A stretch of 50,015 bases of DNA from a virus, in the IMG/VR virus record IMGVR_UViG_3300044822_000273, positions 1-50,015 of that record; one strand, given 5' to 3'. Below are positions 1,288 through 46,168 of this stretch, piece by piece. The position numbers were made by a program, and so were the translations under genes. How positions within the stretch are numbered: position 1 is the stretch's first letter; every line of letters begins with the position of its first letter. Under the pieces are notes generated by a model. It was given only the letters and a program-made list of their open reading frames with translations, did not search any database and was not told where the DNA came from.

Positions 1288-2298
1288 TTGACCGAGCTTC
1301 GAGCTGCACTGCCGTGGCTGGCCGACGTACCCCGCAATGTCTGCTCGCAGCTCTTGGTCGAGCTGGACCGAGCTTGGCAACGCTGCTTCGCCAAGCTGGC
1401 CCGCGCCCCTCGGTGGAAGCGACGCGGACGAGACGCTCTCGGCTTCTGCGAGCCGCACCCGAAGGTCTGGCGCGTCCACGGTACAGACATCCGCTTCCCC
1501 AAGCTCGGAACGCTCCGCACCGTGATGCACCGCCCGCTCGAGGGGAAGCCGAAGACATGCACCCTGAAGCGAGACGGAGACCAGTGGTTTGTCAGCATCG
1601 TTTGCGAGCTTGACGTTGCTGACCCCACCCCGCGCATGGGCCCTGTTGTCGCGATCGATCGCGGGATCGCCAACTTCGGCGCGACATCGGACGGCAACAT
1701 GATCGCCAACCCACGCCACCTCGAACGAGCGCTGAAGCGCCTCGCTCGCGCACAGAGAACCGTCAGCCGACGAAAGAAAGGATCGAAGAACAGAGAGAAG
1801 GCCAAGATTCGCGTCGCCCGCATCCACCGAAAGGTGAAGCGGCAACGTGATCACTTCCTGCACGTCCAGTCTGCACGACTCGCCAAGAGCCACGGCGTCG
1901 TTGTGCTGGAACGGCTGAACGTAGCAGGGATGAAACGCAGCAACCTCGGACGCAGTATTTCGTCGGCGAGCTGGTCTCGCTTCGCCGAGTTGCTGCGATA
2001 CAAGCTGGCGTGGTCCGGGGGCTCGCTCGTCGAGGTAGGCGCCGCATACAGCTCGCAGACGTGCAGCGAGTGCGGCGCCGTGGACGCGAAGTCCCGTCGC
2101 TCGCAGTCGTCGTTCGCCTGTACTTCGTGTGGGCTCTTGGACCATGCGGACCTCAATGCTGCAAAGGTTTTGCTCGCTCGTGCGAATCGCTCGAGCGCTA
2201 TGCCTGTGGACGGGAGCGCCTGTAAGGGGCCCGGACGAAGCAGGAAACGGGTTGCGCTACGTGTTCCACGTCGCTCTCCTGAAAGCTCCGCCCTTTAG
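1288..2298 (+). CDS. tnpB: TnpB RNA-guided nuclease, N-terminally truncated
   Basis: TnpB, the IS605-family RNA-guided endonuclease ancestral to Cas12. From the TTG at 1288 the 336 residues contain the split RuvC site: Asp in AIDRGIANF (about 124), Glu in VVVLERLNVAG (about 208) and Asp in HADLNAA (about 288). A CxxC...CxxC zinc ribbon (Cys 259, 262, 278, 281) lies between the last two. The open frame continues upstream to 1177, and the residues there (RFLWNIALEQRK) fit the family N-terminus, but the first 25 or so codons, with the usual FRLYP segment, are missing and a stop (1174-1176) blocks them. The catalytic core looks intact; the 5' loss may prevent full activity. The C-terminal codons run into the right-end hairpin. 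Confidence 0.85.
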   Translation: MTELRAALPWLADVPRNVCSQLLVELDRAWQRCFAKLARAPRWKRRGRDALGFCEPHPKVWRVHGTDIRFPKLGTLRTVMHRPLEGKPKTCTLKRDGDQWFVSIVCELDVADPTPRMGPVVAIDRGIANFGATSDGNMIANPRHLERALKRLARAQRTVSRRKKGSKNREKAKIRVARIHRKVKRQRDHFLHVQSARLAKSHGVVVLERLNVAGMKRSNLGRSISSASWSRFAELLRYKLAWSGGSLVEVGAAYSSQTCSECGAVDAKSRRSQSSFACTSCGLLDHADLNAAKVLLARANRSSAMPVDGSACKGPGRSRKRVALRVPRRSPESSAL

Positions 2299-2313
2299 GG
2301 CGGGGTTGATTAC
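2281..2313. repeat. IS605-type right-end hairpin (copy abutting cas operon)
   Basis: The palindrome CCGCCCTTTAGGGCGG, preceded by GAAAGCT and followed by GGTTGATTAC. It closes the element at 2313. The start codon of the Cas6-like gene follows 2 bases later at 2316, so this end lies where the operon's 5' leader would be. In characterised TnpB systems the guide RNA scaffold covers this end and the guide is the flanking DNA. Confidence 0.8.
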
Positions 2314-2315
2314 CG

Positions 2316-3176
2316 ATGGCGAGTGCGAGTCCCAGGCAGGTGTACGAGCGCGAGAGGGCGCGCCTGCCATCGCGCATCCTCGCGGCGCGGGCGCGGAATC
2401 GAGCGTGGGCAGAGGAGCACCGCTCCTGCCAGGAGCGCAACCACTGGCTAGCGGGGGCTGCCCCTTACTCGGATCATCTGCCCGGCGGCATCACCACCAT
2501 CCAGTTCGAGCCTCGTCCGCGATGGCCGATGCACCTGCGCAACGCCCGTGGACTGCATGGTGCGATCACGATGCTGCGTGACCGTCCGCACGGGCGCTGG
2601 CCGGCATGGTCGCTCTTTCCGTGCGCCGACGGCTGGGCCATCTACTGGTCCGAGAACGCCGACGCCGAGCGCTTTGCAAATGCCCATCTCAACGGCGCGC
2701 TCTGGGATGCGCCGACGCTCTTTCGGTTCGGAGACCTGTTTCGTATGCGCGCGCCGACCGACCGCAAGCGCGGCCGCCGCTTCGTGCGGATCGACGCGAT
2801 CACGCCCATCGTGACGCGGAGCGTGGGCGGTACGGCGGTCTGCACGTGTCCGACGGAAGACACGATCCGGGGCGCGTTGACGGGCGAACTGCTCTACCGG
2901 CTCAGCCCCATGCATCGAGGGGATGCCCCAGGGCAGGACGCTTGGACGCAGTGGACCAAGCCCCGCGTGATGCTCCGTATGGTCGAGCGAGTCACCGAAC
3001 CTGCGCACACGGACTGTGGTGGCAAGCTGGGTCGCGTGTCGGGCTGGCAGGGGTCGGTCACGCTCGAGACCAATGCGACGGCGCGCTGGCTTCTTCAGGC
3101 GTGCGAACGCGGGATCGGCCTCGGCGGTCGCACGGCGTTCGGCTTCGGGCGCATTCGGGTGACGTCGTGCGAATGA
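2316..3176 (+). CDS. Cas6-like RAMP protein of type IV module
   Basis: A 286-residue protein whose last 21 residues (266-286) contain GIGLGGRTAFGFGRIRV, a glycine-rich loop of the kind that ends Cas6 and related RAMP proteins. The middle stretch RGLHGAITMLRDRP also looks RAMP-like. It overlaps Csf1 by an ATGA, so it belongs to the same operon. The expected role would be CRISPR RNA processing or binding, as Csf5/Cas6 does in type IV-A. Type IV-B loci normally lack a cas6, which makes this gene unusual. No clear catalytic His is identifiable by eye. The start lies against the IS end with only a GGGG at about 10 bases as possible ribosome-binding site, so the N-terminus may have been altered by the insertion. 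It could instead be an unrelated RAMP subunit. Confidence 0.55.
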   Translation: MASASPRQVYERERARLPSRILAARARNRAWAEEHRSCQERNHWLAGAAPYSDHLPGGITTIQFEPRPRWPMHLRNARGLHGAITMLRDRPHGRWPAWSLFPCADGWAIYWSENADAERFANAHLNGALWDAPTLFRFGDLFRMRAPTDRKRGRRFVRIDAITPIVTRSVGGTAVCTCPTEDTIRGALTGELLYRLSPMHRGDAPGQDAWTQWTKPRVMLRMVERVTEPAHTDCGGKLGRVSGWQGSVTLETNATARWLLQACERGIGLGGRTAFGFGRIRVTSCE

Positions 3177-3946
3177 CGCCGACGTACCGCCTGCATACGC
3201 TGGCGGGCTCGCCGCGCGTGGCCGACTGCGCCGTTCAGCCGTCCTTTCGCTGCTGGGTGTGCGCTGGCCTCGCGTGTCGAGGGATGCTCCAGACGCGTTG
3301 GCAGGGCGCCTCGTTCACAGGTCAGAACCGCGTGCGCTGTCCCGAATCGACGTTCGTGTGTGAGGCGTGCGTGTGGGCGATGGCCGGCAAGCCGCCCGAC
3401 ACGCTGAGGATGTACTCCCACTTCGTCGATGGCCGTGGTTGGCGGAAGTGGAACAAGGGCGACAAGGCCGCGATGCGCGACTGGCTCCGTGCACCCAAGC
3501 GCGGCGAGTGGTTTGCGGCGATCGCGGACAGCGGGCAGAAGCATGTGCTTCCGTGGGCGCCGATCAACAGCGAGGCCGCGACAGCCCCGCGCGTCCACTT
3601 CGAGGACCGGATCGTGACGCTGTCCTCCGACTGGTCGCTGCTCGACGAGCTCGCCGAGCTGCTCACGCTCGGCGCGACGAAAGAGGAGATCGGACGCGGC
3701 GAGTATGGCCCGCGCGCGTGGCTGCTCTGCGGTGAGGGACTACGGGCGTTCGAAGCGCGTTGGGCCTACGAGCGTGGAGGCGGACGGTTTGACCTGATGG
3801 TGTGGCTCGCGCAACGCGACGAGACGCGCGTCCAAGCGCGCATGGAGGACGAACGGCATGCTCGACGACAAGCAAAAGGAGCGGCTGCGAAACAAGACGG
3901 TCGAGGTGATTCTCGTCGTGCGCGCCGCGTACCTGCGCACGCCTAA
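3173..3946 (+). CDS. csf1: Csf1, type IV CRISPR large subunit
   Basis: A 257-residue protein with an N-terminal zinc-finger pattern: Cys27-x2-Cys30 (CWVC) and Cys63-x2-Cys66 (CEAC), with extra Cys at 35 and 56. This pattern and length fit Csf1, the type IV large-subunit (Cas8-like) protein that holds the complex together at the crRNA 5' side. The ATG at 3173 overlaps the Cas6-like stop (ATGA). Downstream it overlaps the small-subunit gene by 89 bases. The C-terminal 40 residues are basic (RHARRQAKGAAAKQDGR). The call rests on the Cys pattern plus its position before Csf2 and Csf3. Confidence 0.78.
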   Translation: MTPTYRLHTLAGSPRVADCAVQPSFRCWVCAGLACRGMLQTRWQGASFTGQNRVRCPESTFVCEACVWAMAGKPPDTLRMYSHFVDGRGWRKWNKGDKAAMRDWLRAPKRGEWFAAIADSGQKHVLPWAPINSEAATAPRVHFEDRIVTLSSDWSLLDELAELLTLGATKEEIGRGEYGPRAWLLCGEGLRAFEARWAYERGGGRFDLMVWLAQRDETRVQARMEDERHARRQAKGAAAKQDGRGDSRRARRVPAHA

Positions 3947-4238
3947 CGCGAACGTGCTCAAGCACTGGGACCAACTGCAGTCCCGGATCCGCGCGGCCGC
4001 GCGCACGACGTCGTCACCTGAAGAGTGGGTCACGTGCCTGTCCCGAACGTTGCAGTTGAGCGCCCCAAACGTGGAATGCTCGTCTGCCACGTGCGCCCTG
4101 GCGGACGACGTGCACGAGCTCGGCGCGGCATCGGAGTGGCTCCAGCTCGTCGAAGACGAGTACGGCTACCTGCTCGCTCTTACGCGGTCGGTGGCGGAGA
4201 AGCGCAAGACAGATCGGCAGGAGGACGCCCATGTTTGA
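3858..4238 (+). CDS. cas11: Cas11-like small subunit
   Basis: A 126-residue, mostly helical protein (for example KERLRNKTVEVILVVRAAYL and LQLVEDEYGYLLALTRSVAE) between csf1 and csf2. That is the position of the small helical subunit Cas11 in type IV-B operons, where several copies line the crRNA backbone. It starts within the csf1 reading frame (89-base overlap) and overlaps csf2 by 8 bases. There is no diagnostic motif, so the call is from size, composition and context. Confidence 0.62.
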   Translation: MLDDKQKERLRNKTVEVILVVRAAYLRTPNANVLKHWDQLQSRIRAAARTTSSPEEWVTCLSRTLQLSAPNVECSSATCALADDVHELGAASEWLQLVEDEYGYLLALTRSVAEKRKTDRQEDAHV

Positions 4239-5214
4239 AGTGATCGCCTACGAGATCCTGGTCGAAGCCGTGACGCCCATCGCCCACGCGAGCGAATCGC
4301 TGGGCAATCACTCGATCGTCATGCGTCGCAAGACCCGATTGCCGGGCGGCGGTTGGGCAAACGTGCCGATCATCACGGGCGATACGATGCGCCACGGACT
4401 GCGCGAGGCGGCGGCGTACGCCTTTCTCGACGCAGCGGGCATGCTCGACAAGGCCGACCTCAGCGAAGCCGCGCTGCGCCTGCTCTTCACGGGGGGCATG
4501 GTGACCGGGCGTGGCGACGCCGCGAACATCAAGATGGACGACTACCGCGACATGGTGGACCTCGTGCCGCCGCTCGCCCTGCTCGGCGGGTGCGCCAGCA
4601 ATCGTGTCGTGCCCGGTCGCCTCGTGAGCGAGGACGCCGTCCTTGTCTGCGAGGAAGCCAAGGCCCTCGTGCCTGCGTGGACCGTGGAGCGCGCCGGCGT
4701 CCTGTCCGGTGCCAGGGCGCACCTGGAGATCGCGCAGCGCGTACGGATGGATGCGACGCTGGATCCCGGCAAGCGCAAGCTGCTCGCGACGGGCGCGACC
4801 GCGAAGCTGGAGGCGAAGACGCGGCGAAGCGAAGCGGCTGCCGAAGCCGACGACGCCATCGCGCGCGAGGAAAGCAAGAGCACGATGCTCCCGCGAACGT
4901 TCGAGGCGGTCGCTTCCGGATCGCTCTTCTCGTGGCGCGTGCAGGCCACGTGCATGAGCGAGCTCGACCGCGACACCTTCCACGCGATGATCGGCGCGTT
5001 TCTCTCGAACGCCCGTGTCGGCGGAAAGCGCGGCGTCGGATGCGGCTTGCTTCGCGCCGTCGCCGCGAACGCCATCACGGTGCACCGTCCTGCGGAAGCC
5101 ATGCGCCCGGTGGATCCGTCGGCGCTGGGGCCTCGTGTCGGCGAGGTGTTCCGCACGCACGTCCGGCAGCGCGCCGACAGGGCCCGCGCGTTTCTGGCCG
5201 AGGTCAACGCGTGA
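4231..5214 (+). CDS. csf2: Csf2, type IV Cas7 backbone protein
   Basis: A 327-residue Cas7-family protein that would polymerise along the guide RNA. Visible RAMP features are VPIITGDTMRHGLREAAAY near residues 45-65, matching the Cas7 PG(N/D)SLRGxLR-type segment, and a late glycine-rich loop GGKRGVGCGLLRAVA near 270-285. The intervening LVPPLALLGGCASNRVVPGR is typical of Csf2. A charged stretch (KRKLLATGATAKLEAKTRR) could form the thumb. It starts inside the cas11 end and overlaps csf3 by GTGA, so the subunits are translationally coupled. This is the strongest single identification in the module. Confidence 0.85.
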   Translation: MFEVIAYEILVEAVTPIAHASESLGNHSIVMRRKTRLPGGGWANVPIITGDTMRHGLREAAAYAFLDAAGMLDKADLSEAALRLLFTGGMVTGRGDAANIKMDDYRDMVDLVPPLALLGGCASNRVVPGRLVSEDAVLVCEEAKALVPAWTVERAGVLSGARAHLEIAQRVRMDATLDPGKRKLLATGATAKLEAKTRRSEAAAEADDAIAREESKSTMLPRTFEAVASGSLFSWRVQATCMSELDRDTFHAMIGAFLSNARVGGKRGVGCGLLRAVAANAITVHRPAEAMRPVDPSALGPRVGEVFRTHVRQRADRARAFLAEVNA

Positions 5215-5879
5215 TCGGATCGCCGACGGACCGTGTCGATCCGATGCGGGTGCGCGCCATCGTCCGTGCGGCCGTGACCGGACCGCCGCCGATCGACTCG
5301 CTCCTTGCGTCGGTCGAGGCGCAGCGCGCAGGGCTCGTCGCGGGGTTCGGACCGCTGCAGCCGGTCGAGATCCCGATCGCGCGTGAATCGGCCGGTCGCT
5401 TCCATCTCTGCTCGGCGGCGCTAGCCGAGTACGACGCGCACGAACTGCGATGGGTGAACCGCAAGTTCCCGCTCGCGGAAGCGCAGATCATGGCCGGCCC
5501 GCGCCTGAAGCGCGTGAACATCTCGGCGGGCGCGTGCAAAAGCTACCGCCTCCCGCACGAGGCGGCGTGGCCGAAGGACGACACGATCACGTGGTTCGCG
5601 GCGGGCGATCGCGATCGCGTGCGAGAACTGCTCGGCTACGTCACGCACCTGGGTAGGCGCAGGGCCGTGGGCCGCGGGGCCGTGCGCGAATGGATCGTCG
5701 AGCCGTGGGAGACGTGGGAGGGCTTCCCGGTCGTGCTCGATGGCAAGCCGCTGCGGCCGCTGCCCCTCGATTGGCCCGGGCTCGTGGAGCCGGCCGAGGG
5801 ATACGGTACGCTCACGTTCCCGTATTGGGACCACGTCCGAGAGGATCGTTGCGCGATGCCCGATCGTGCTGCTGGCTAG
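5211..5879 (+). CDS. csf3: Csf3, type IV Cas5-like subunit
   Basis: A 222-residue Cas5-like protein that would cap the 5' handle of a guide RNA. Recognisable family features are the start MRVRAIVRAAVTGPPPIDSL (residues 12-31), which resembles the Csf3 first strand and 'hLDslL' segment, and RLKRVNISAGACKSYRLP, the Csf3 signature around a Lys-Ser-Tyr-Arg. A GRRRAVGRGAVREW loop follows. I used the GTG at 5211 because it overlaps the csf2 stop as GTGA; an in-frame ATG at 5244 fits the domain start better and may be the true start. It overlaps cysH by 14 bases. Confidence 0.8.
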   Translation: MIGSPTDRVDPMRVRAIVRAAVTGPPPIDSLLASVEAQRAGLVAGFGPLQPVEIPIARESAGRFHLCSAALAEYDAHELRWVNRKFPLAEAQIMAGPRLKRVNISAGACKSYRLPHEAAWPKDDTITWFAAGDRDRVRELLGYVTHLGRRRAVGRGAVREWIVEPWETWEGFPVVLDGKPLRPLPLDWPGLVEPAEGYGTLTFPYWDHVREDRCAMPDRAAG

Positions 5880-6621
5880 CCCACGATACACCGCCGAGGA
5901 CGCGGCGCGGTGGGCTGCGCTCGAGCGCCAGGACGCGGTCTACGCAGGTACGGCCCGATTTGCGCGCCACGTGGCGCGGGCTGAGCGGTGGCTATCCGGC
6001 TTTGTGCGTGAGCGCGAAGCGCGGTGTTACGCGGGGGTCAGCTGGGGAAAGGATTCGACGGTCATCGCGGACATGGTGTGCCGGTTAGCCCCAACGGTAT
6101 CGCTCGTATGGGTGCGCGTTGAGCCGATCGCCAACCCCGATTGCGTGCTTGTGCGCGACGCGTTCTTCGCGATCCATTCGTCCGCCAGGTACGAGGAGAT
6201 CGTGGTTCGGTGCGAACGTGATCCGCAAGGGCTTCGCGTGACGGAGACGTTGGGAGATCTTCCGCACGCGTTCCGGGTGACAGGAACGCTCGAGCGTGGA
6301 TTTGCGGAGGCAGCGCATCGCTTCGGGTCGCGGCACATCTCGGGCGTGCGAGCTGAGGAGAGCGGCGCGCGCCGCAGGCGTATGGAAGCTTTCGGCGCGG
6401 CTACGGACTCGACGTGCGCGCCGATTGGATGGTGGCGCGCAGAGGATGTCTGGGCGTACCTCTATGCGCGTCACCTGCCGGTGCACCCTGCCTATGCCTG
6501 TATGGGTGTCGCGTGGTCACGCGATCGGATCCGCGTCGCTTCGATGGGAGGTCGCCGCGGGCGCGGGCATGGCCGGCAGGAATGGGAGCGGAGGTACTAT
6601 CCAGAGGCGCGAAGGCTGTGA
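5866..6621 (+). CDS. cysH: CysH-like PP-loop enzyme of type IV-B module
   Basis: A 251-residue member of the PAPS reductase/ATP pyrophosphatase fold. The PP-loop GVSWGKDSTVIADM is at about 57-70, a SGxRAEES-like GVRAEESGARRRR follows, and PIGWWRAEDVWAYLYARHLP matches the C-terminal CysH segment. The catalytic Cys motif of true assimilatory sulphate reductases (ECGxH near the C-terminus) is absent. CysH homologues accompany type IV-B CRISPR loci in the literature, with unknown function; nucleotide or RNA modification has been proposed. The GTG at 5866 is the only plausible start and overlaps csf3. It is the last recognisable gene of the operon. Confidence 0.85.
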   Translation: MLLASPRYTAEDAARWAALERQDAVYAGTARFARHVARAERWLSGFVREREARCYAGVSWGKDSTVIADMVCRLAPTVSLVWVRVEPIANPDCVLVRDAFFAIHSSARYEEIVVRCERDPQGLRVTETLGDLPHAFRVTGTLERGFAEAAHRFGSRHISGVRAEESGARRRRMEAFGAATDSTCAPIGWWRAEDVWAYLYARHLPVHPAYACMGVAWSRDRIRVASMGGRRGRGHGRQEWERRYYPEARRL

Positions 6622-6714
6622 GCGGCTCGTCGCGACCTGCTCACCGAGGTCGACCGGTGCGAGTCGCGGACGCGGCTGCTGAAGCGCTACCTGGACCAGC
6701 TGGGAGAGGACTGA
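6622..6714 (+). other. Coding-like stretch just after cysH stop
   Basis: The 30 codons after the cysH TGA, in the same frame, read as a helical charged peptide (RRDLLTEVDRCESRTRLLKR then YLDQLGED) before a second TGA. There is no ATG, GTG or TTG in the frame. It may be a C-terminal part of cysH lost through a premature stop, a remnant of a small helical gene, or chance. Between 6715 and 6895 I see no further gene. Confidence 0.3.
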
Positions 6715-6895
6715 GCCGGGCGACGGCGGCAAAGGACGCGGCGAAGTAGTTCGGGGAGGTCCAACGTGCGGGGTGGCGCCCCTGGGCGATGGGTGAGTCG
6801 CGCGACCGCGCTCACGCCACCGCTTCCTCTTCTGCATTGGGCGGCAAAAGCGGCAATCGTCGCTTGGTGCCGCCACGATGGCGACAGCAATGGGG

Positions 6896-7249
6896 CTACT
6901 GATACTGGATGCGCAGGCCCCTCCGGTGATCGATCTGGGCGCGTTCGAAGCGCCTCTGGCTTTCCTGGTCGTGTTCCCGTTCCGCCTCCTCCATCTGCTC
7001 GAGGGGGACGCCGCGTAGGTCCACTACCCGATTGCCCGTCCAGCGATCGCGGATGCTGGCGAGCAGTCGCTCGCGACGGATTTCGCCGAGTTCGTCGTCA
7101 TGCACCGGACTGCCGTCCGAGAGGCCGTTGGCCATCGCGGGCAACTCGGTGCCGCACGCTGCGCACGATTGGGGGGCGGACCGCATGACGCCGATCGTCT
7201 TCACCTCGCGCCGTCGAGCGCACAAATGGCACACCAGCGTCCAGGTCAC
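6896..7249 (-). CDS. Zinc-ribbon phage protein, unknown function
   Basis: A 117-residue protein from a GTG at 7249 that overlaps the stop of the upstream gene (GTGA). Two CxxC pairs, CHLC at about 7-10 and CAAC at about 31-34, predict a zinc ribbon. The rest is a charged helix (LEQMEEAEREHDQESQRRFE) likely to form a coiled coil. Such proteins are common near phage morphogenesis genes, but I cannot assign a role. Confidence 0.6.
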   Translation of the reverse strand: MTWTLVCHLCARRREVKTIGVMRSAPQSCAACGTELPAMANGLSDGSPVHDDELGEIRRERLLASIRDRWTGNRVVDLRGVPLEQMEEAEREHDQESQRRFERAQIDHRRGLRIQYQ

Positions 7250-7389
7250 GTGCTGTCCTTTGGTGGAATCGACCAGGTGCACTCGTAGCGGTTGCGACCG
7301 CTCAACGGGACGCGCGCCGGCCCCGGGCGTTCGCGGTAGTTGATCGAGCGAAGCCCCTTGAACTCGATACCGTTGATCGTAATGCGCAC
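7246..7389 (-). CDS. Short protein resembling the tail tube N-terminus
   Basis: A 47-residue protein from a GTG at 7389 (AGGTGG lies 6 bases upstream). ITINGIEFKGLRSINYRERP closely parallels the tail-tube protein at 28524-29075 (KVAGQIFSGFKSINYSRVRS), and the following GRNRYECTWSI parallels RGTNAYKADVEF there. It could be a truncated tube paralogue or a small virion protein sharing that beta-hairpin. A longer start at 7485 adds an Arg-rich leader that looks non-coding. It overlaps the zinc-ribbon gene by 4 bases. Confidence 0.5.
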   Translation of the reverse strand: MRITINGIEFKGLRSINYRERPGPARVPLSGRNRYECTWSIPPKDST

Positions 7390-7481
7390 GGCACGCCACC
7401 TGGCGGCAAGGACAACAATTTGGCGAATGACTGCGCGCCGGCGGCGCCGCAATCGCGTGCCGATACACCGAGCACGGTACG

Positions 7482-7634
7482 TCACGCGTCCCCCGTCGGC
7501 ACGTACCAGGCGGGCAGGCCCTCGGCGTCGACGAACCAGGCAACCGATCCGCCGCCGATCACGACGACGTGCAGGTCCGGTAGGCCTGGCCCGCGCACGA
7601 TGCCGCTATCGGGATCAAGCTGCACCCAGGTCAC
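7482..7634 (-). CDS. Small hypothetical phage protein
   Basis: A 50-residue protein (GTG at 7634, 4-base GTGA overlap with the transglycosylase stop). It is mostly beta-type, with LHVVVIGGGSVAWFVDAEGL. No family is recognised. Its place between the muramidase and the tube-like gene suggests a tail or lysis accessory role, which is a guess. Confidence 0.5.
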   Translation of the reverse strand: MTWVQLDPDSGIVRGPGLPDLHVVVIGGGSVAWFVDAEGLPAWYVPTGDA

Positions 7635-8263
7635 GCGGGTTGGCTCGCGACGGCGTCGGTCAGCCTTGCGGACAGGTCGCTCCACCGCGGACCTACGCAT
7701 GCGCGCACGACCGACGCGCCGAGGTCTCCGACGGTGATGTAGCCCTTGTGGTCATGATCGAGCCCAGGGTTCCAGTGGTAGAACTCCGCGCGACGAGGCG
7801 ACGCCGGTCGCGGATCGACGAGAACGAACGACGGATCGCCGCCGTGCGCGATGTCGGCGGGCAAGAAGTTCACGAGGTAGACGGCGTCCTGCGAGACGAG
7901 CTGGCCCTTGTGCGGAGCGAAGTGGCGCTCGACGATCGGCAACTGCGTCTCGACCGATGCGGCGAGGTAGGCCGGAACGCCTTGCGTCCAGCCGCACGCC
8001 TGCAGATTGCTCGGGTTGCCCTGGCAGAGCAGTTGGTTCAGGCCGACGGCCACCGGGTTGCCGGCGGGCGAGCGGCAGCACGCCGACGTCTTGCAGCCCG
8101 ACTCCGAGTACATGACGCCGAGCAGCCACGCCGGATTCGTGTCGAGCCGCGAGGCCATCGCTACCAGCGCGGCGAAGGCCGCATCGCTCCAATCGGTGGT
8201 GACAACTCCCCTACCTGCCGCAAGCGGCGAGGTAGGGGCTTCTCGGATCTTCGAGCTGGACAT
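7631..8263 (-). CDS. Lytic transglycosylase-like enzyme, 5' end replaced by IS
   Basis: A 210-residue peptidoglycan-degrading protein. MASRLDTNPAWLLGVMYSES holds the likely catalytic Glu (YSESG), followed by VAVGLNQL, as in SLT/lysozyme-like folds. A C-terminal EF-hand-like NPGLDHDHKGYITVGDL is common in phage transglycosylases. The first 20 or so codons of this frame come from the end of the inserted IS200/IS605 element (8203-8856). The original start is probably the ATG at 8902, now cut off. It may still be expressed from the ATG at 8263, as the domain itself is intact. The role could be lysis or tail-associated cell-wall penetration. Confidence 0.7.
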   Translation of the reverse strand: MSSSKIREAPTSPLAAGRGVVTTDWSDAAFAALVAMASRLDTNPAWLLGVMYSESGCKTSACCRSPAGNPVAVGLNQLLCQGNPSNLQACGWTQGVPAYLAASVETQLPIVERHFAPHKGQLVSQDAVYLVNFLPADIAHGGDPSFVLVDPRPASPRRAEFYHWNPGLDHDHKGYITVGDLGASVVRACVGPRWSDLSARLTDAVASQPA

Positions 8264-8350
8264 TCAGCCCTCCCCGAAGGCGCTGCCCGCGCCTTTGCAC
8301 ATTGACGGCAGCGTTGATGTCGCGATACCGGTAGACGCGGACCATGGCCG
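8211..8350 (-). pseudogene. tnpB: tnpB C-terminal remnant
   Basis: The minus-strand frame ending at the TAG at 8211 contains YRYRDINAAVNVQRRGQRL, matching the DRDxNAAxNI segment that holds the last RuvC aspartate of TnpB. The zinc ribbon and all upstream domains are missing. As in the other element, the stop codon lies inside the terminal hairpin. Confidence 0.7.
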
Positions 8351-8365
8351 TACTATGCTTGGTTC

Positions 8366-8782
8366 GTGGCCCATACGCAAGCTCTCCACCGCAACGCAAA
8401 CGCCGTTTACCGACTCGTCTACCACTTGGTTCTCGTTACCAAGTACCGCAAGAATGTGCTCACCGGAGCCATGCTCGACCGGGCCTCGACCATCCTCGGC
8501 ACTCTCTGCGAAGCGTGGGAGGGGTGCCTGCTCGAATGCTCCGGAGAGGTCGACCACATCCATGCCCTCATCGACCTGCCGCCGAAGGTGCGGCCGACGG
8601 ACATCATCAACAACCTCAAGACCGTTACGAGCCGCCGGCTGCGCGCCGAGTTCCCCGTTCTTCGCTCGGCCTACCGAGGCAAGCCTGTCCTCTGGTCGCC
8701 GAGCTACTGCATCATCTCGGCGGGAGGTGCGCCTATCGAGATCCTCAGGCAGTACGTGGAGAACCAGAAGAGACCGGACTAA
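8366..8782 (+). CDS. tnpA: IS200/IS605 TnpA transposase
   Basis: A 138-residue Y1 HUH single-strand transposase, full length for the family. It has YHLVLVTKYRKNVL at about 19-32, the HUH motif DHIHALIDLPPK at about 63-74, SPSYCIISAGGAPIEI and the nucleophile helix ILRQYVENQ with Tyr at about 131. The start is a GTG at 8366; the tnpB remnant is divergent on the other side. All catalytic residues are present, so this copy could act on matching ends elsewhere in the window, for example at 48900-48951. Confidence 0.9.
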   Translation: MAHTQALHRNANAVYRLVYHLVLVTKYRKNVLTGAMLDRASTILGTLCEAWEGCLLECSGEVDHIHALIDLPPKVRPTDIINNLKTVTSRRLRAEFPVLRSAYRGKPVLWSPSYCIISAGGAPIEILRQYVENQKRPD

Positions 8783-8804
8783 GGCCGCCCCCGCTCGCTC
8801 CACC

Positions 8805-8856
8805 CGAGTGGACCCCCGCCTGCGGAGCGAGGCGGGGGCTTGCCGTTTTGCGGTCA
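8805..8856. repeat. IS200/IS605 end, copy 1 of 52-base repeat
   Basis: A 52-base sequence with the hairpin CCCCCGCC...GGCGGGGG and tail TTGCCGTTTTGCGGTCA. It is repeated exactly in inverse orientation at 48900-48951. In this copy it forms the tnpA-side end of the element. Confidence 0.9.
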
Positions 8857-8902
8857 TGCCCTGGGTGAGGGTCAGCGGCGGGTAGAGCAGGTTCCACGTC
8901 AT
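8857..8902 (-). pseudogene. Severed 5' end of the transglycosylase gene
   Basis: The ATG at 8902 overlaps the stop of the 8899-9129 gene as ATGA, the junction used throughout this genome. It reads MTWNLLYPPLTLTQG before running into the transposon end. On the far side of the element the transglycosylase frame resumes with VVTTDWSDAAFAAL. I infer that the two pieces were one gene. Confidence 0.6.
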
Positions 8903-9129
8903 TCGGTCCTCCGGGCGAGCAGCATGCGGGCGCGATCCGAGGCGCGTGCCACGAGCGCGAGTTCGTCGACGATCCGATCGTCCTTGGCGCTCGTTGGCAG
9001 CGCGCGGGCAACCGCCGTGACCGCGTCGAGTGCCGTGACGATCCCTCCGCCCTCGGCCACGAGCTCGGAAGGGTCAAGTTCGATCACGGGCGGCAGGCAG
9101 GGCAGCGTGTCGTCGGACAACGGGTTCAC
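8899..9129 (-). CDS. Small hypothetical phage protein
   Basis: A 76-residue acidic, helical protein from a GTG at 9129 (GTGA overlap with the gene before it). The C-terminal half (DRIVDELALVARASDRARML) looks like a helical hairpin. No family is recognised. Confidence 0.55.
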   Translation of the reverse strand: MNPLSDDTLPCLPPVIELDPSELVAEGGGIVTALDAVTAVARALPTSAKDDRIVDELALVARASDRARMLLARRTE

Positions 9130-9365
9130 TTTCCCGCGGGTCGCTTGTCGAGCCCCTTCTCGACGAGAAGCGCCTGCAGATCGTCCATGTGCAGGCAGTC
9201 CACGAGACAGGCGCCGGCGCTCGCGATTGGAGCAACGTTCCCGTTGCAGTAATCGTTTCCGGCCACCGCGTCGTACAGAACCCCGACACCGACGATCCTG
9301 CCGTCGTGTCCGATCTGAATGACCTTGTCGCCGTTCTTCGCTTCGCGTCCGTTTCGGTAGTGCAT
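9126..9365 (-). CDS. Small conserved-looking phage protein
   Basis: A 79-residue protein starting MHYRNGREAKNGDKVIQI, an SH3-like strand pattern, then CLHMDDLQALLVEKGLD. Proteins beginning (Y)xNGxxVxxGDxV are frequent small phage proteins of unknown role. A GAAAGGAAC-type ribosome-binding site precedes the ATG. Confidence 0.55.
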   Translation of the reverse strand: MHYRNGREAKNGDKVIQIGHDGRIVGVGVLYDAVAGNDYCNGNVAPIASAGACLVDCLHMDDLQALLVEKGLDKRPAGK

Positions 9366-9399
9366 TGGTGTTCTCGGTTCCTTTCGTGATTGCCGCGGG

Positions 9400-9507
9400 C
9401 TATCGCCGCGGCTCGTGGTAGCGAGGCGTGAGGCCGTGGCGCCAGGCGTGGGCCAGATCCACGGCGACGGCGAGCGGCCAGAGAAGCAGCCGGGCGATCC
9501 GTCTCAC
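9400..9507 (-). CDS. Small membrane peptide
   Basis: A 35-codon gene: a GTG at 9507 overlapping the previous stop as GTGA. It encodes MRRIARLLLWPLAVAVDLAH, one short hydrophobic segment behind positive residues, and a basic tail. The coupling to its neighbour supports translation; function unknown. Confidence 0.45.
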   Translation of the reverse strand: MRRIARLLLWPLAVAVDLAHAWRHGLTPRYHEPRR

Positions 9508-9737
9508 CTGGCCGCCTCCGGCTCGAGGTGAAGCGCCGTCCTTCCCTCTCGCGCGCGAGGCGGCCGACCGGGACCGCGCTTCTTGCCGTAGCCACCGTTC
9601 ACAACCACGAGCGGCGCGTGCAGCCGCCCATCCTCGCCCCGCCAGAACCGGCGATCGGGCACGCGCGATGTCCAGTGGGGCGCGGTGCCCGCGAGGGTCG
9701 ACGGGACGATCGGGTCGTCTGGATTGTGCGCCGTCAC
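9504..9737 (-). CDS. Small protein with AT-hook-like motif
   Basis: A 77-residue protein from a GTG at 9737 (GTGA overlap with the epimerase stop). The segment KKRGPGRPPRAREGR contains GRPPR, resembling an AT-hook for minor-groove DNA binding. The N-terminal half has PHWTSRVPDRRFWRGEDG. Function unknown. Confidence 0.5.
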   Translation of the reverse strand: MTAHNPDDPIVPSTLAGTAPHWTSRVPDRRFWRGEDGRLHAPLVVVNGGYGKKRGPGRPPRAREGRTALHLEPEAAR

Positions 9738-10723
9738 GCCGCCTCCCGCGGGCCGCCGGCCTTGGCGACCTGGCCGCCGATCCATTCGTACGTACGCCGC
9801 AGCCCTTCGTGCAGCGAGATCTTCGGCTCCCACCCGAGCGCGCGCATCCGGGCATGGCTGAAGTTGCGCCCCTGCACGCCCACGGGCTTGGTCGGGTCGT
9901 AGGCGATCGAGAGCTTCTTGCCCGAGATCCGGATCATGTCCTCGGCGAGCTCGCGCACGGTCACGATCTCCTCGGTGCCGATGTTCGTCGGCCGGGCCTC
10001 GTCCGACTCGGTCAACGCCCGGATTCCGTCGACCAGATCGTCGACGTAGATGAACGACCGCGTCGCCGATCCGTCGCCCCACACCTCGACCGATCCGCCT
10101 TCGGGTGCCTCGGCCACCTTGCGGGCCAGCGCGGCGGGCGCCTTCTCGCGACCGCCCGTCCACGATCCGTGCGGACCGAAACAGTTCTCGAAGCGTGCGA
10201 TCCGCACCCGCATCGCCGGGTGCCGGCGTGCGAACGCCTGCGCCACGCGCTCCGAGTAGAGCTTCTCCCATCCGTATTCGTTGTCGGGGCCGGCCGGGTA
10301 GGCATCCGCTTCGGTGAGCGACGGAGCTCCTGGCCCGAGCGGCGAGACGTCGCGGTAGACGCACACGCTCGACGAAAAGAGGTAGCGCTTGACGCCCGCG
10401 CTCGCCGCGGCAGACGAGCAATTCATGTTGATCCGCGCGTTGTTCGTCAGGCACTCGATCTCGCTCGACGAGATGAAGCCCATGCCGCCCATGTCGGCGG
10501 CGAGCTGGTAGACGGCGTCGTACGGATGCTCGAGCACGCGTGCAGCCTCCCTAGGCTCCCGCAGATCGCAGTCACCGAACGACACGTCCGCGCCCGATTG
10601 CCACCAGTCCTGCACCCGGCGCAGATCGGCACCGACCACGAAGAAACCCTCGCGCTTCAGCCGCTTGACGAGGTGGCCGCCGATGAAGCCGCCGGCGCCG
10701 AGAACGAGTGCGGTCTTGCTCAT
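9734..10723 (-). CDS. GDP-mannose 3,5-epimerase-like NAD-dependent epimerase
   Basis: A 329-residue short-chain (extended SDR) nucleotide-sugar enzyme. The Rossmann GAGGFIGG is at 9-16 and the catalytic YGWEK (YxxxK) near 150. AADMGGMGFI is a segment I recall from GDP-mannose 3,5-epimerases, which make GDP-L-galactose and GDP-L-gulose. The ATG at 10723 has a GAGAGGA ribosome-binding site lying beside the IS-like hairpin 10735-10767. It probably supplies sugar donor for the fucosyltransferase-like enzymes 12316-13769 in the same operon. Another SDR specificity cannot be excluded. Confidence 0.72.
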   Translation of the reverse strand: MSKTALVLGAGGFIGGHLVKRLKREGFFVVGADLRRVQDWWQSGADVSFGDCDLREPREAARVLEHPYDAVYQLAADMGGMGFISSSEIECLTNNARINMNCSSAAASAGVKRYLFSSSVCVYRDVSPLGPGAPSLTEADAYPAGPDNEYGWEKLYSERVAQAFARRHPAMRVRIARFENCFGPHGSWTGGREKAPAALARKVAEAPEGGSVEVWGDGSATRSFIYVDDLVDGIRALTESDEARPTNIGTEEIVTVRELAEDMIRISGKKLSIAYDPTKPVGVQGRNFSHARMRALGWEPKISLHEGLRRTYEWIGGQVAKAGGPREAA

Positions 10724-10734
10724 GTCGTCCTCTC

Positions 10735-10767
10735 GAAAGCTCCGCCCTTTAGGGCGGGGTTGATTAC
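10735..10767. repeat. Dispersed IS605-type right-end palindrome
   Basis: GAAAGCTCCGCCCTTTAGGG continuing to CGGGGTTGATTAC, identical to the tnpB-side end at 2281-2313. Its final TTAC is the complement of the G-TAA stop of the 10764-11555 gene. It lies between two minus-strand genes and could act as a terminator or mRNA processing hairpin. Confidence 0.85.
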
Positions 10768-11555
10768 CGCTTCTTCTCCGAAGGCAGCGGCACATTGCGA
10801 AACCGCGACCCCGTGCCGGGATTGTTGTCCTTGCCGCCAGGCACGCAGCGGCCGACGTGGACCTGGACGAAGTACTGCCGCTCGCCCGCCGCGGGATGCG
10901 ACGCCTCGGGCTGCAGCGGGTAGCCGTACTTGTGGACGAGGTTCGTCAGGATGGCTTGGTCGGTCCGGTGCTCGACGAAGCTCGCATCCGTCGGCGCGTA
11001 CCGCGTGCCTCTGCCGGGCAAGCGCGTGTTGGCGTACGGGTTGAGCAGGTACGCCTGCCACTCAAGGACAAGCTGTTCCGCCCTGTAGTCGCCCTTCTTG
11101 ATGAAGAGGAACCGCGCGCATCCGGCCTCGGCCTCGCGGTACCTCGGTTCGTCCTGGCCCATCACGGCGAAGCAGTCGCCGGTGCACCATCGCTGGTGTC
11201 CGCCGTGGCCGATGACGTTGAAGAAAACCGCGCCCTCACGATCCGCCTGCTCGTAGAGCGGCGCGAGCGGCCGTATGGGGTAGGTATCGCCATCCACGTA
11301 AGCGACGATGTCCCCGGGCGCGGCGTGGTCGAGCGTGTCGCGGAGCAGGAGGGCTTTCCATGCGTGCCAGCCGAATCCGATCATGCCCGGCAGGTCGAAC
11401 AGCCAGCGGTTCACCTCGTAGAACGGGTGTGCCTTGATCCAGACGTCGTCGTAGATCCGCAGTTCGTCGACGCCGAACCGCGGCGCGTCGGCGATGGTGC
11501 GCTCGACGATGCCCTCGTAATCTGCGCCGCCCAGGAGGCACATCCAGCGCTTCAA
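10764..11555 (-). CDS. GT-A type glycosyltransferase
   Basis: About 263 residues. The TTG at 11555 overlaps the methyltransferase stop as TTGA (an ATG at 11543 is the alternative). IVAYVDGDTYPIRPLAPL holds the DxD metal/sugar-nucleotide site, preceded by helices around an aromatic HAWKALLL segment. The later HRTDQAILTNLVHKYG matches the 'DQ' acceptor region of GT-A enzymes. It probably transfers a sugar within the phage glycosylation cassette; donor and acceptor are unknown. Confidence 0.65.
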   Translation of the reverse strand: MKRWMCLLGGADYEGIVERTIADAPRFGVDELRIYDDVWIKAHPFYEVNRWLFDLPGMIGFGWHAWKALLLRDTLDHAAPGDIVAYVDGDTYPIRPLAPLYEQADREGAVFFNVIGHGGHQRWCTGDCFAVMGQDEPRYREAEAGCARFLFIKKGDYRAEQLVLEWQAYLLNPYANTRLPGRGTRYAPTDASFVEHRTDQAILTNLVHKYGYPLQPEASHPAAGERQYFVQVHVGRCVPGGKDNNPGTGSRFRNVPLPSEKKR

Positions 11556-12319: not shown

Positions 12320-13113
12320 GCGGCCTCCTTCGCCAGCGTCTCGGCCGCCCGGTCGGGCCGGTTGCGGTACCACTCGCCGTCGGCGCTCGGCATGTGCTCG
12401 CGGAGCACGAAGCCTCCCGGCGGTTCGCCTTTCCAGCGGATCATGCGGATCGCCTCGGTGAACGAAGACATCCAGCTGCCCTGGAAGGCCGCACCGGCGG
12501 CGCACGTGAACATGTCGACGGCGGCGTCAAACAGCGTCCCCGGTCGGACCTCGTAGCCGCTGACGGCCTCGGGGATGCGCTGCGTGTGCAGCGTGCCGGG
12601 CGCGAGACGCTGCCGGAAGAACTCGATCGTCGCGGCGCTGTCGGTGGCGAGGTACAGCGCGTACGGCCGCTCGGCGTAGCGCCTGCCCCACCACGCAAGC
12701 AACTCTTCGTCGGAGGTGAAGTGTCCGAACGTCGGCGCGTGGTTCACGTGATCGCAGCGCCGTGCGTGGATCGCCACGTACGGCCCGCCGATCTGTGCTT
12801 GCAACTCGGCGACGCGGGCGAGCACGCGCGCCTTCGGTCGGATCTCGGCGTAGCCCTTCTCCCATCCCGCCGGCGCGCCATCGGCCACCTGCGTCCACGC
12901 GACGATGTCCGCGCCGCCGACCTCGTGACCGTGGCCTTCGCCCGCGTAGGTGAACGTCACGCCGTCGAGCGGCTGAAACACGTCGAGAAACGCCCCGTGG
13001 CTGACGGCGTCCGAGTTCGCCCAGAGCACCTCAAGCGGACCGTGCTTGGCGCGATACGACAGGATCTGGCGCAGGCGGTTGCCGAGGCCGCCGATCGGCG
13101 CGAGCTTCAGCAT
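12316..13113 (-). CDS. Fucosyltransferase-like glycosyltransferase (paralogue A)
   Basis: A 265-residue protein from the ATG at 13113. It has an N-terminal GGLGNRLRQILSYR loop, the donor-binding YVAIHARRCDHVNH, which resembles the HxRRxDY motif of GDP-fucose-using GT11-type enzymes, and a C-terminal AAGAAFQGSWMSSFTEAI segment. It overlaps its paralogue 13107-13769 by 7 bases. Predicted to transfer a 6-deoxyhexose or L-sugar from a GDP donor. Confidence 0.62.
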   Translation of the reverse strand: MLKLAPIGGLGNRLRQILSYRAKHGPLEVLWANSDAVSHGAFLDVFQPLDGVTFTYAGEGHGHEVGGADIVAWTQVADGAPAGWEKGYAEIRPKARVLARVAELQAQIGGPYVAIHARRCDHVNHAPTFGHFTSDEELLAWWGRRYAERPYALYLATDSAATIEFFRQRLAPGTLHTQRIPEAVSGYEVRPGTLFDAAVDMFTCAAGAAFQGSWMSSFTEAIRMIRWKGEPPGGFVLREHMPSADGEWYRNRPDRAAETLAKEAA

Positions 13114-13769
13114 CCCCGGACCGCCCTCAGCCGATCGATCGTCTCGCTGAACGACGAGCCGCGCGTGCCGAGAAACGCGGACGCGGACGCGCACACGAAG
13201 AGATCGGCCGCGGCGTCGGCAATGCTCCCGTGCCGGCGCGTGTCGCCGACGGCCTGCACCCTGCCGCCACCCAGCGGCACGAGCACGCGCCCGCGGCCCT
13301 GGAGGGCCGCCAACAATTCGATCTGCGTCTCGCCGTTGTCCGTGGCGACGTGAACGTCGCCTTGCTGTTCGAGCGCCCACACGACAAAAGCCGACTCTGG
13401 TTCGAGTCGGCCGTGGTGCCCCGCCTCGTGCGGGACGTAGTCGGTGCGCCGGACGTGGATCGCGCTGTAGGGCCAGCCAAGCGCGTCGCGGTGCAGCTCG
13501 ATTTCCTTGGCCACGACCGGCACCGGTCGAAGCAGTCGGTGCTCGCGGATCCAGGTGGCGGGCGCGGCGACGTGCACGGCCCAGTCGCGCACCGTCTCGC
13601 CGCTCTCCACGAAGGACAGGCCGTCGATCGGCTCGAAGGCCTCGAGGAAATGCCCGAAGGCGACGGGCTGATCGCAGTGCCAGACAACGCGGATGTCGCC
13701 GTGGACCGCGAGATACGACAGGATGGCCTGTAGCCGGTTGGCCAGGCCGCCGATGGCGTTCAGGATCAC
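13107..13769 (-). CDS. Fucosyltransferase-like glycosyltransferase (paralogue B)
   Basis: About 220 residues from a GTG at 13769 (the open frame extends to 13799). Shares with its neighbour the N-terminal GGLANRLQAILSYLAVHG, the motif SAIHVRRTDYVPHEAGHH and the C-terminal SASAFLGTRGSSFSETIDRL. The RRTDY here is the better match to the GDP-fucose-binding HxRRxDY. The two genes are a tandem duplication that has diverged well, which suggests different acceptors. Confidence 0.65.
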   Translation of the reverse strand: MILNAIGGLANRLQAILSYLAVHGDIRVVWHCDQPVAFGHFLEAFEPIDGLSFVESGETVRDWAVHVAAPATWIREHRLLRPVPVVAKEIELHRDALGWPYSAIHVRRTDYVPHEAGHHGRLEPESAFVVWALEQQGDVHVATDNGETQIELLAALQGRGRVLVPLGGGRVQAVGDTRRHGSIADAAADLFVCASASAFLGTRGSSFSETIDRLRAVRGC

Positions 13770-13811
13770 GCCGCCGACGCTAGGCCGCCTGCACCGCACG
13801 TCCCCAGTTCG

Positions 13812-14153
13812 CTATGGCGTGACGGTGGCGCAGCCCACCCGGGAGTAGTCGTCGGCCACTGCGCTGGAGATGGCGCCCAGGGTTGCCCCCGTGACGCCGA
13901 GAAGCGCCCCGGTGCCGCCCAGCGCCAGCTTATCGGCCGTGCTGGTGACGTCCCCTGCGAGTCCGCCGACCCCCGCCGACGCGGCGAACGACGACGCCAG
14001 CGCAGTGAAGACGTTGTGCTTTGCCCGCAACCGCTCGCACGCGGCGTACTTCGCGGGATCGGGCGCGGCCGCACGCAGTCCCGAGGCCGACGGAGCGCGC
14101 AGGCAGCCAGCGCAGAGCGCCGCCGTGACGACGGAGAGCACGATCGTTTTCAC
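13812..14153 (-). CDS. Putative small lipoprotein
   Basis: A 113-residue protein from a GTG at 14153 (GTGA overlap). Signal peptide MKTIVLSVVTAALCAGC with lipobox LCAGC, so the mature protein would be anchored by a lipidated Cys. A Gly/Ala-rich helical part follows (GGTGALLGVTGATLGAIS) that may insert in or cross a membrane. It may belong to a lysis set (spanin-like) or alter the host envelope. Confidence 0.55.
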   Translation of the reverse strand: MKTIVLSVVTAALCAGCLRAPSASGLRAAAPDPAKYAACERLRAKHNVFTALASSFAASAGVGGLAGDVTSTADKLALGGTGALLGVTGATLGAISSAVADDYSRVGCATVTP

Positions 14154-14422
14154 GCGCCCCTGTCGGTCGGTACGTCGCGCATCTCTTCGAGCGCGATCAG
14201 GAGAAAGCCGTACGCGCGCGCCGCGCACGCCGAGGCGTGGCTCGGATCCTCGAAGCGACCGCTCTTGCCCGGCCCCTCGCCGGCCTGGGGCGGAAGGACC
14301 TCCCCGCAGTCCACGAGCTCGGCCACGGCGAGACGTACCAGATCGTCGGGCGCCGCGATCCCCCGGCGGAACCGCTCAAGCGCGCCGACGTAGGCCGAGC
14401 CGGTCTTGCACGCTAGGGGCAT
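14150..14422 (-). CDS. Small hypothetical phage protein
   Basis: A 90-residue protein from the ATG at 14422, overlapping the upstream gene by 10 bases and the lipoprotein gene by 4. It is helical, with DDLVRLAVAELVDCGEVLPP and RAYGFLLIALEEMRDV. No signal peptide, no known family. Confidence 0.5.
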   Translation of the reverse strand: MPLACKTGSAYVGALERFRRGIAAPDDLVRLAVAELVDCGEVLPPQAGEGPGKSGRFEDPSHASACAARAYGFLLIALEEMRDVPTDRGA

Positions 14423-14739
14423 GCGCCCTGGGCCCCTGCGCAGTCGTTGACGGCCGCGGCACTGCCCGCGTCGAGGATGCAGTCGACGTCGACCGGCGTA
14501 TCGCCGCGGGCCAGGAGCCTCTGGAAGCCCAGCGTGCACGTGGCCATCGTCGAGCAGCCGAGCTGCGTGACGACGTGGGTGCAGAGGGTGGCAACCGATG
14601 CGGCGTTGCGCGCGGCGTCTGTCGTCGTGATCGTGATGGGCGGATCGTTCGGCAGGGCGGAGCCGCACTGGCAGAAGAGCAGGCCGGCGAGGCTGAGCGC
14701 GAAGCCGCCGAGGAGAGAGAGGCCGATCGCTCGGATCAC
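14413..14739 (-). CDS. Putative exported Cys-rich small protein
   Basis: A 108-residue protein with an N-terminal hydrophobic helix MIRAIGLSLLGGFALSLAGL and LLFCQCGS as a possible lipobox, then a Cys-rich exported part (Cys at intervals suggesting disulphides, ending DCAGAQGACP). The ATG at 14739 overlaps the peptidase stop as ATGA. Confidence 0.5.
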   Translation of the reverse strand: MIRAIGLSLLGGFALSLAGLLFCQCGSALPNDPPITITTTDAARNAASVATLCTHVVTQLGCSTMATCTLGFQRLLARGDTPVDVDCILDAGSAAAVNDCAGAQGACP

Positions 14740-15614
14740 GAGGGCGCCTTGGCAAGTTCAGCGTTGATGAGGCGGAACGACGAGCCGCGCGCCCCGTAGG
14801 CCATGACGAACTGCTCGGAGACCCAGACGCAGCCGGGCACGTGGCAGAGCGGGCTCCAGGTGGTTGCCCAGTGGTTGAGGCAAAGGAAGATCAACGAGCC
14901 GTCTGCCGCGGGCGCAACGTCGATGACGCTGATCTCGTGGTTGGTCGGGTTGTTCGTGGTGGGGGCGCCGAGAACATCAGCGCCCGTCGCGTTCTGGAAC
15001 GCGGGGTCGTCGGCGTCGATGTCGAAGGCAACGCCGCGCCCGAGCCTGCCGTCCGGCAGCGGCTGGAGTGCTTGGGCGACGGCGGTGACGAGCGCTTGGC
15101 CCGTCTCCGCGATCCCTGCGTAGACGCCGTTGACGAGCGGAATCCTGGGCGCGCTGTCGGCTGCCTGAACGAAACTCTCGGCCTGCCCGAACGTGCTGAC
15201 GTCGTAGGGCCACTCGCTCTCCAGCGACGGGCCCTCGGCGTAGAGTGCCATGACCGCGATCGACGGCTCAAGGCCGTCGTCCGTGATCGTCGTCGTGTCG
15301 GGCACGCCGTTGATCTTCTGCGTCATGCGCAGCGACCGCGTGTAGCCCGCCATCGGCGACAGGATCATCGGCGTGCCTTGGCCGGCGAGCGATAGGCCGA
15401 GCAGATCCCGCCAGATCGTGAAGGCCACGCATGAGCCCAGCGAGCCCTGGTTTCCGACGCCGCCGATCGCAGGCAGCAGCGTGTAGTTCTGCGTCGCGGG
15501 CAGGCTCGCTTTGGGCCGAGGCACGCCCAGGCCGGGCAGCTGGTGGTGCGGGACCATACCCGCCGCCAGCGCCCGCCCCGTCGCATCCGGCTTGAAGCCG
15601 CGGCCGAGATTCAC
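14736..15614 (-). CDS. Papain-family (C1-like) cysteine peptidase
   Basis: A 292-residue protein from a GTG at 15614 overlapping the previous stop (GTGA). The catalytic triad region of C1A peptidases is visible: GNQGSLGSCVAFT with Cys62 (papain QGxCGSCWAF), a late NHEISVIDV with the His, and LNHWATTWS with the Asn (papain NSWGxxWG). There is no obvious signal peptide. Papain-like enzymes are unusual phage endolysins; it could cut peptide cross-bridges, process virion proteins or attack host surface proteins. Its position beside a membrane protein gene fits a lysis or delivery role. Confidence 0.72.
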   Translation of the reverse strand: MNLGRGFKPDATGRALAAGMVPHHQLPGLGVPRPKASLPATQNYTLLPAIGGVGNQGSLGSCVAFTIWRDLLGLSLAGQGTPMILSPMAGYTRSLRMTQKINGVPDTTTITDDGLEPSIAVMALYAEGPSLESEWPYDVSTFGQAESFVQAADSAPRIPLVNGVYAGIAETGQALVTAVAQALQPLPDGRLGRGVAFDIDADDPAFQNATGADVLGAPTTNNPTNHEISVIDVAPAADGSLIFLCLNHWATTWSPLCHVPGCVWVSEQFVMAYGARGSSFRLINAELAKAPS

Positions 15615-45782: not shown

Positions 45783-46168
45783 GTCGTGCTCGCGCGCTCG
45801 GTCACCGTGGGCGTGGTCTCGACGACGCGGTAGGTCACGGGGTTCGGCGCGCCGCTGCACACGTTGTGCAGCACGAGGTGCAAAGACTTGGTGCGGGTGG
45901 GGGCGAGGGTGAAGGCATACAGGATGGTCCGCAGGCATCCGCACCCAGGGACCGGGGCCGGGCGCTCTCCGCGCTGCCACGCCGCGAGCTGGACCTCATC
46001 GAGCAGGTGGGCATCGATCGGCTTGGCGGACGACACGGCCAGCGTGAATAAGCGCGACGTCGATCGGGCGCCGCGCGGGAGGGCGTCCGGTTCGACGTCG
46101 AGCGCAGTCGCCTCGTATCCGTGCGGCGCGAGCGTAACTTCGCTCGGACCCAGGGCGTAACCGGTCAT
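45779..46168 (-). CDS. Hypothetical protein next to gmd
   Basis: A 129-residue beta-rich protein from the ATG at 46168 ([34 protein letters not shown] type ending). The stop overlaps the gmd GTG. No family recognised; its place suggests an accessory or structural role in the sugar cassette. Confidence 0.45.

Follow-up and report, generated by a model that had tools for sequence, protein, structure and literature searches.

A Cas6-like gene heads a type IV-B-like csf operon in a phage genome without a detectable CRISPR array

Which RNA do type IV-B CRISPR-Cas (clustered regularly interspaced short palindromic repeats and associated proteins) complexes carry in their natural setting? These systems are reported to lack both Cas6 and an array, and this has been one of the arguments that they act as a non-specific RNA sponge. 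The question is raised by a locus in a 50,015-bp stretch of DNA (hereafter the window), the whole of the IMG/VR virus record IMGVR_UViG_3300044822_000273. Six overlapping plus-strand open reading frames (ORFs) at 2316-6621 encode, in this order, a Cas6-like RAMP protein (Cas6L), Csf1, Cas11, Csf2, Csf3 and a CysH-like PP-loop enzyme; successive genes overlap by 4, 89, 8, 4 and 14 bases when cysH is taken from the GTG at 5866. A preliminary description of this DNA had read the locus as a type IV-B-like csf operon that includes a CysH-like gene, which the six ORFs and their PADLOC and Pfam matches bear out (Table 1). Its interval began at 2316 and thus covered the first gene, but left that gene unnamed and missed its Cas6 identity.

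Judged by its modelled fold and by sequence conservation, the leading gene encodes a Cas6. The window protein scores weakly with sequence profiles (PADLOC Cas6, E=0.0024; Pfam, 16.8 bits against a 25-bit cut-off) and stays under the cut-offs of both Pfam and NCBIfam; its homologs score higher with PADLOC Cas6 (L046, 2.9e-9; L036, 3.6e-8), and the Pfam Cas6 profile matches 10 of 15 of them at E values up to 0.1. A tblastn search of phage and plasmid records with Cas6L gave no match, and a sequence-profile search of the PDB returned chance matches only; the relationship becomes visible at the level of the fold. An AlphaFold (AF2) model derived from 15 homologs (mean predicted local distance difference test score 83.6) exhibits the tandem ferredoxin-like RAMP fold expected of Cas6. 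Its best matches among PDB structures are Cas6 structures (Foldseek E ~1e-8), with VIA Z values of 17.6 against the S. thermophilus Cas6 (212 residues, root-mean-square deviation 4.0) and 15.9 against the type IV Cas6 6njy. The key glycines of the C-terminal glycine-rich loop (GIGLGGRTAFGFGRI) are invariant among the homologs, and His81, located in the first helix of the model (residues 77-88), is kept in all full-length homologs down to 25% identity, as is a second histidine, H92. The ratio of non-synonymous to synonymous substitution rates (dN/dS) of cas6L lies between 0.13 and 0.27 in six pairs, with synonymous changes predominating, which indicates purifying selection; high values for cysH were disregarded, as the ORFs had been over-extended into csf3 in another frame. 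Because the Cas6 fold, the conserved histidine and glycine loop, and purifying selection coincide, Cas6L is most likely an active endoribonuclease. One homolog (L011:7046-8004) is broken into two overlapping frames, through either a frameshift or a sequencing error.

The identity of the remaining five genes is more readily apparent from their sequences. The profile searches that the preliminary description had proposed yielded PADLOC E values from 1e-9 to 8e-41 for Csf1, Cas11, Csf2 and Csf3; the protein that it had called a small helical subunit is the one matched by the type IV Cas11 profile, and the two CxxC pairs that it had read in Csf1 are present as CWVC and CEAC. Csf1 also matches TIGR03114 (E=7e-7), under the cut-off of that profile, and a PDB search with the window Csf2 found the type IV-B structure 7jhy as the nearest solved Csf2 (E=4e-8). 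For CysH, the query used with PF01507 started at 5857, and the alignment points to the GTG at 5866 as the start codon. Its PP-loop motif (SWGKDST) is intact, the C-terminal ECG(L/I)H motif of sulfonucleotide reductases is absent, and the protein is 51% identical to CysH from another viral IV-B operon; csf-linked CysH proteins are present in related operons. Separately, some related phages have a second, DndC-like PP-loop gene ~2-4 kb downstream of their IV-B operon (L040:12666-13733; second CysH-family genes likewise in L041, L044, L045 and L050).

Table 1. Positions of the operon genes and of the adjoining insertion element in the window
Feature	Position	Strand	Details
Cas6-like RAMP endoribonuclease (Cas6L)	2316..3176	+	286 aa; candidate catalytic His81; C-terminal glycine-rich loop GGRTAFGFGRIRV
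Csf1 (type IV Cas8-like large subunit)	3173..3946	+	257 aa; PADLOC Csf1_0_IV E=2.1e-21
Cas11-like small subunit	3858..4238	+	126 aa; PADLOC Cas11_1_IV E=1.4e-9
Csf2 (Cas7-like backbone)	4231..5214	+	327 aa; PADLOC E=8.3e-41
Csf3 (Cas5-like)	5211..5879	+	222 aa, GTG start; PADLOC Csf3_0_IV E=2.5e-32
CysH-like PP-loop enzyme	5866..6621	+	251 aa; PF01507 (PAPS_reduct) E=1.8e-7, passes gathering score
IS200/IS605-type element	706-2309	+ (listed for 1288..2309)	intact TnpB, split TnpA; abuts the operon
TnpB gene	1288-2298	+	NCBIfam guided_TnpB E=4e-74
Right-end hairpin of the element	2284-2308		

With its csf1/csf2/csf3 core, Cas11-like small subunit and CysH-like ancillary gene, the operon has the gene content of type IV-B. 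As the preliminary description had stated, neither an array nor Cas1 nor a DinG-type helicase was found in the window; it had also named Cas2, for which no separate search was made. Type IV-B, or the studied IV-B operon, is stated to be without a crRNA-processing (CRISPR RNA-processing) enzyme (PMC8175902, PMC7937560), and on this point the window departs from the usual definition (PMC8175902) through the Cas6 fold, the conserved histidine and the recurrent linkage of the gene to csf genes. We regard the operon as a variant rather than a typical member of type IV-B because Cas6 is present. Our literature search found no report of Cas6 in type IV-B; it did not cover the primary surveys PMC7038947 and PMC8658065, so that an earlier mention is possible, and the existence of PADLOC profiles with names like Cas6_5_IV is a hint that other type IV loci include Cas6. 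Carriage by phages and archaeal viruses, in contrast, is already published (PMC10848311, where prophages and lytic phages are cited as well; PMC11656645); the unusual part of the locus is the Cas6 within a IV-B operon.

Comparison with known systems underlines this point. The IV-B operon of the Mycobacterium sp. JS623 megaplasmid (PDB 7jhy; PMC7937560) has the same csf1-cas11-csf2-csf3 order and a CysH-like gene, and like the window it has no array, no Cas1 and no DinG; the window operon differs in being phage-borne and in possessing Cas6. The IV-B locus of the Fuxiviridae, viruses of Bathyarchaeia (PMC10848311), is likewise virus-borne, includes a CysH-like gene and lacks an adaptation module, but it has a two-repeat mini-array and Cas6 is not mentioned for it, whereas the window has Cas6 and no array. 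In the isolated Skermania phage SPI1 (L002, KR011061), Orf40-44 (5846-9479), annotated as hypothetical proteins, correspond to csf1-cas11-csf2-csf3-cysH as in the window; however, no Cas6 was detected there and its Csf2 is only 25% identical. Type IV-A (Csf1-3, Csf5/Cas6, DinG and an array) likewise combines Csf subunits with Cas6, while the window lacks DinG and an array and has Cas11 and CysH instead.

The csf-cysH module recurs widely among phages. A scan with a CysH alignment retrieved 25 viral contigs, a Sorangium metagenome-assembled genome (MAG) and Corynebacterium phocae, and one with an alignment of the close Csf2 clade retrieved 26 viral loci that overlap partly with these contigs; together they add ~45 further IMG/VR viral contigs to the Skermania phage. 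The preliminary description's view that a phage-borne IV-B module would be unusual does not hold in the light of these contigs, SPI1 and the Fuxiviridae. Single-protein scans of the viral contigs with Csf2, Cas6L or TerL as queries had found no relatives, in contrast to the two alignments. Beyond the module, few genes are common to the window and the related phages, and the module therefore moves between phages. Dozens of contigs with mostly unrelated genes elsewhere carry this one gene set, which places the association far beyond chance. Among cellular genomes, the Sorangium (Myxococcota) MAG contig is the nearest to carry the module. This is compatible with the myxobacterial origin previously proposed for the phage, although only one of 379 Myxococcota genomes has the module.

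In a Csf2 tree that includes IV-B-type plasmid operons and is without IV-A or IV-C references, the window falls within a clade (support 100/100) in which 23 of the 24 distinct operons come from viral contigs and the remaining one belongs to the Sorangium MAG. Cas6L is encoded in 16 of these 24, and a Cas6e-like gene in one more. The gene occupies three positions: upstream of csf1 (the window, L035, L036, L039, L049, L056, L057 and L059), between csf3 and cysH (L009, L011 and L046) and downstream of cysH (L051-L055). Three different positions argue for repeated selection of the Cas6-csf pairing.

A second viral and prophage IV-B branch carries Cas6e-like genes that are separate from Cas6L, mostly coupled just upstream of csf1 (L010, L013, L019, L024, L025 and L028) or beside csf3 (L018 and L021). 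The L013 protein matches the Cas6e profile at E=5e-19, the lineage has a histidine equivalent to that in helix 1 of Cas6L, and such a gene is present in all six Corynebacterium genomes found with the second-branch csf2 lineage; several species of the genus carry a prophage of this kind. With the same two profiles, no Cas6L or Cas6e-like gene turned up in any of 11 plasmid IV-B operons, although other Cas6 families could escape these profiles. That phage IV-B operons are linked to two separate Cas6 lineages suggests that the Csf complexes carry a specifically processed RNA. In C. phocae, a chromosomal Cas6e adjoining Cas1 (L121:753-1415) is matched by the phage Cas6e-like profile at 5e-11, so that a host and a prophage Cas6e coexist in one cell.

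If Cas6L cleaves RNA, where does this RNA come from? Among 21 phage records searched for arrays, mostly at full length, the only true array was found in L038 (IMGVR_UViG_3300036045_000023), which belongs to the IV-B clade of the window and lacks Cas6L; other repeats in these records proved to be tandem coding repeats and a tandem tRNA-like repeat. The L038 array (6-7 repeats of ~36 nt) directly follows a Cas12u1/Cas12f-like gene (gene and array together, 12577-15020) and therefore probably belongs to this effector. No other viral contig contains the L038 repeat, and five of the spacers have no match in the other sequences compared. An Actinomyces conjugative plasmid, on which IV-B stands beside an inactivated type V-B3 system with a mini-array (PMC12669027, Extended Data Fig. 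7), provides a precedent for IV-B next to an array-bearing type V effector and parallels L038; the window has no array-bearing Cas12-type effector, only a TnpB borne by an insertion sequence (IS). The 2025 classification depicts IV-B without arrays (PMC12669027). Among 11 compared Cas6L-bearing phage records, no 18-mer outside csf2 was common to at least three. With neither an array nor a common short sequence, the guide either is provided in trans or stems from a non-repetitive RNA.

We suggest, with about even confidence, that the operon is a phage-borne IV-B variant with its own Cas6, in which an RNA supplied in trans is processed for the Csf complex and the CysH-like enzyme serves as an effector or modifier. 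Cas6L would cut a hairpin of an RNA for which the phage has no array, most likely host precursor CRISPR RNA (pre-crRNA) or another transcript provided in trans. Csf1, Cas11, Csf2 and Csf3 would assemble on the processed RNA as a Csm-like filament, comparable to the IV-B structure from cryo-electron microscopy (PMC7937560), and the PP-loop enzyme would act once this ribonucleoprotein (RNP) meets its target, a step that rests on proposals in PMC8175902. The phage could benefit by countering host defences or by competing with other mobile elements. Catalysis, RNA source, target and effector action are what we infer here, and the hairpin cut by Cas6L, once identified, would lead to the guide source. 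A more specific version, in which the array-less IV-B systems with Cas6 of several phage lineages hijack host pre-crRNA, their Cas6 re-processing it for loading onto a phage-encoded Csf-CysH effector that would turn the host's immune memory against competitors of the phage or silence it, we hold only tentatively.

Several observations weigh against our proposal. About one third of the Csf2 clade of the window has no recognisable Cas6, which is hence not essential; the nuclease activity of Cas6L is predicted from sequence and model, with His81 as a candidate counterpart of known catalytic histidines; and the characterised IV-B complex formed on heterogeneous RNA without enrichment of crRNA (PMC7937560). 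The contigs may be fragments, so that an array could lie elsewhere. As to a host supply of pre-crRNA, no Cas1 was found in the Sorangium MAG that carries the module, and among Corynebacterium genomes Cas1 is present in five of the six with IV-B versus 130 of 242 overall, a difference that is not significant; this co-occurrence does not discriminate among mechanisms.

One alternative is an anti-CRISPR sponge, in which Cas6L would cut or compete for host pre-crRNA and the fragments would be trapped by the Csf filament, with no RNA-guided targeting; if true, host type I/III immunity would be disarmed. IV-B RNPs bind RNA non-specifically, on plasmids they have been suggested to work as a sponge (PMC7937560, PMC8175902), and array-less carriage by phages fits such a role. 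We nevertheless consider a sponge unlikely: it leaves the conserved CysH-like enzyme and Csf1 unexplained, and the missing Cas1 in the Sorangium MAG and the non-significant co-occurrence in Corynebacterium also count against it.

Somewhat less probable still is a system with one fixed guide, processed by Cas6L from a phage-encoded, non-repetitive hairpin RNA that repeat finders would miss. The two-repeat mini-array of the archaeal virus (PMC10848311) is in keeping with this idea, as is the intergenic sequence at 6760-6890, immediately downstream of cysH, since only one of 200 shuffled sequences folds better; with a z value of -2.57 in one of three stretches folded, this signal is weak, and the fold may be a terminator, a small RNA or chance. 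The window gave no Rfam match, the Cas6L-bearing records share no 18-mer of the kind sought, and a conserved block upstream of csf1 in L051-L055, considered as a non-coding RNA, was rejected because it looks protein-coding.

The third alternative, that the module is decaying in the window phage, draws on the IS200/IS605-type element, whose end lies 7 bases ahead of the cas6L ATG. Several Cas6L homologs bear an N-terminal cysteine motif that ends where the window copy begins, and for this reason we ascribe the N-terminal loss to the element, which, to judge from these sequences, probably removed the N-terminal zinc finger and the native promoter of cas6L. The frameshifted L011 homolog would also fit decay. 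Yet none of the six ORFs is interrupted and they remain coupled, the model shows an entire Cas6 core, and the homologs L039 and L051-L057 are likewise without the zinc finger, so that we regard decay as quite improbable. The least probable of these explanations, an inert Cas6L that caps RNA 3' ends as a structural subunit, would accord with the general knowledge that Cas6 stays bound in many class 1 complexes, several of which are among the PDB matches, but it is hard to reconcile with the helix-1 histidine in every full-length copy and its equivalent in the Cas6e-like lineage.

The TnpA of the element is broken into two frames and has a 13-bp tandem duplication (1053-1079). If its TnpB is active, the TnpB guide would derive from the bases beyond the right end, that is, from the start of cas6L. 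A second IS200-like TnpA ORF (8366-8782, plus strand) lies amid minus-strand phage genes.

The virion genes, which lie on the minus strand, are genuine and encode a Mu-like gpT head protein as well as the large terminase, portal, sheath, tape measure and baseplate wedge; the phage is contractile with a Mu-like head protein, as the preliminary description had said. In another phage (L008:2815-5040), a DNA cytosine methyltransferase ORF with an apparent intein lies ~0.5 kb upstream of the IV-B operon. The virion gene block of the window is flanked at both ends by minus-strand genes (9734-10795, 44805-45980, 46231-47808 and 47882-48916) for sugar-nucleotide dehydratases/epimerases of the GDP-mannose 4,6-dehydratase type and for glycosyltransferases, which suggests glycan modification by the phage.

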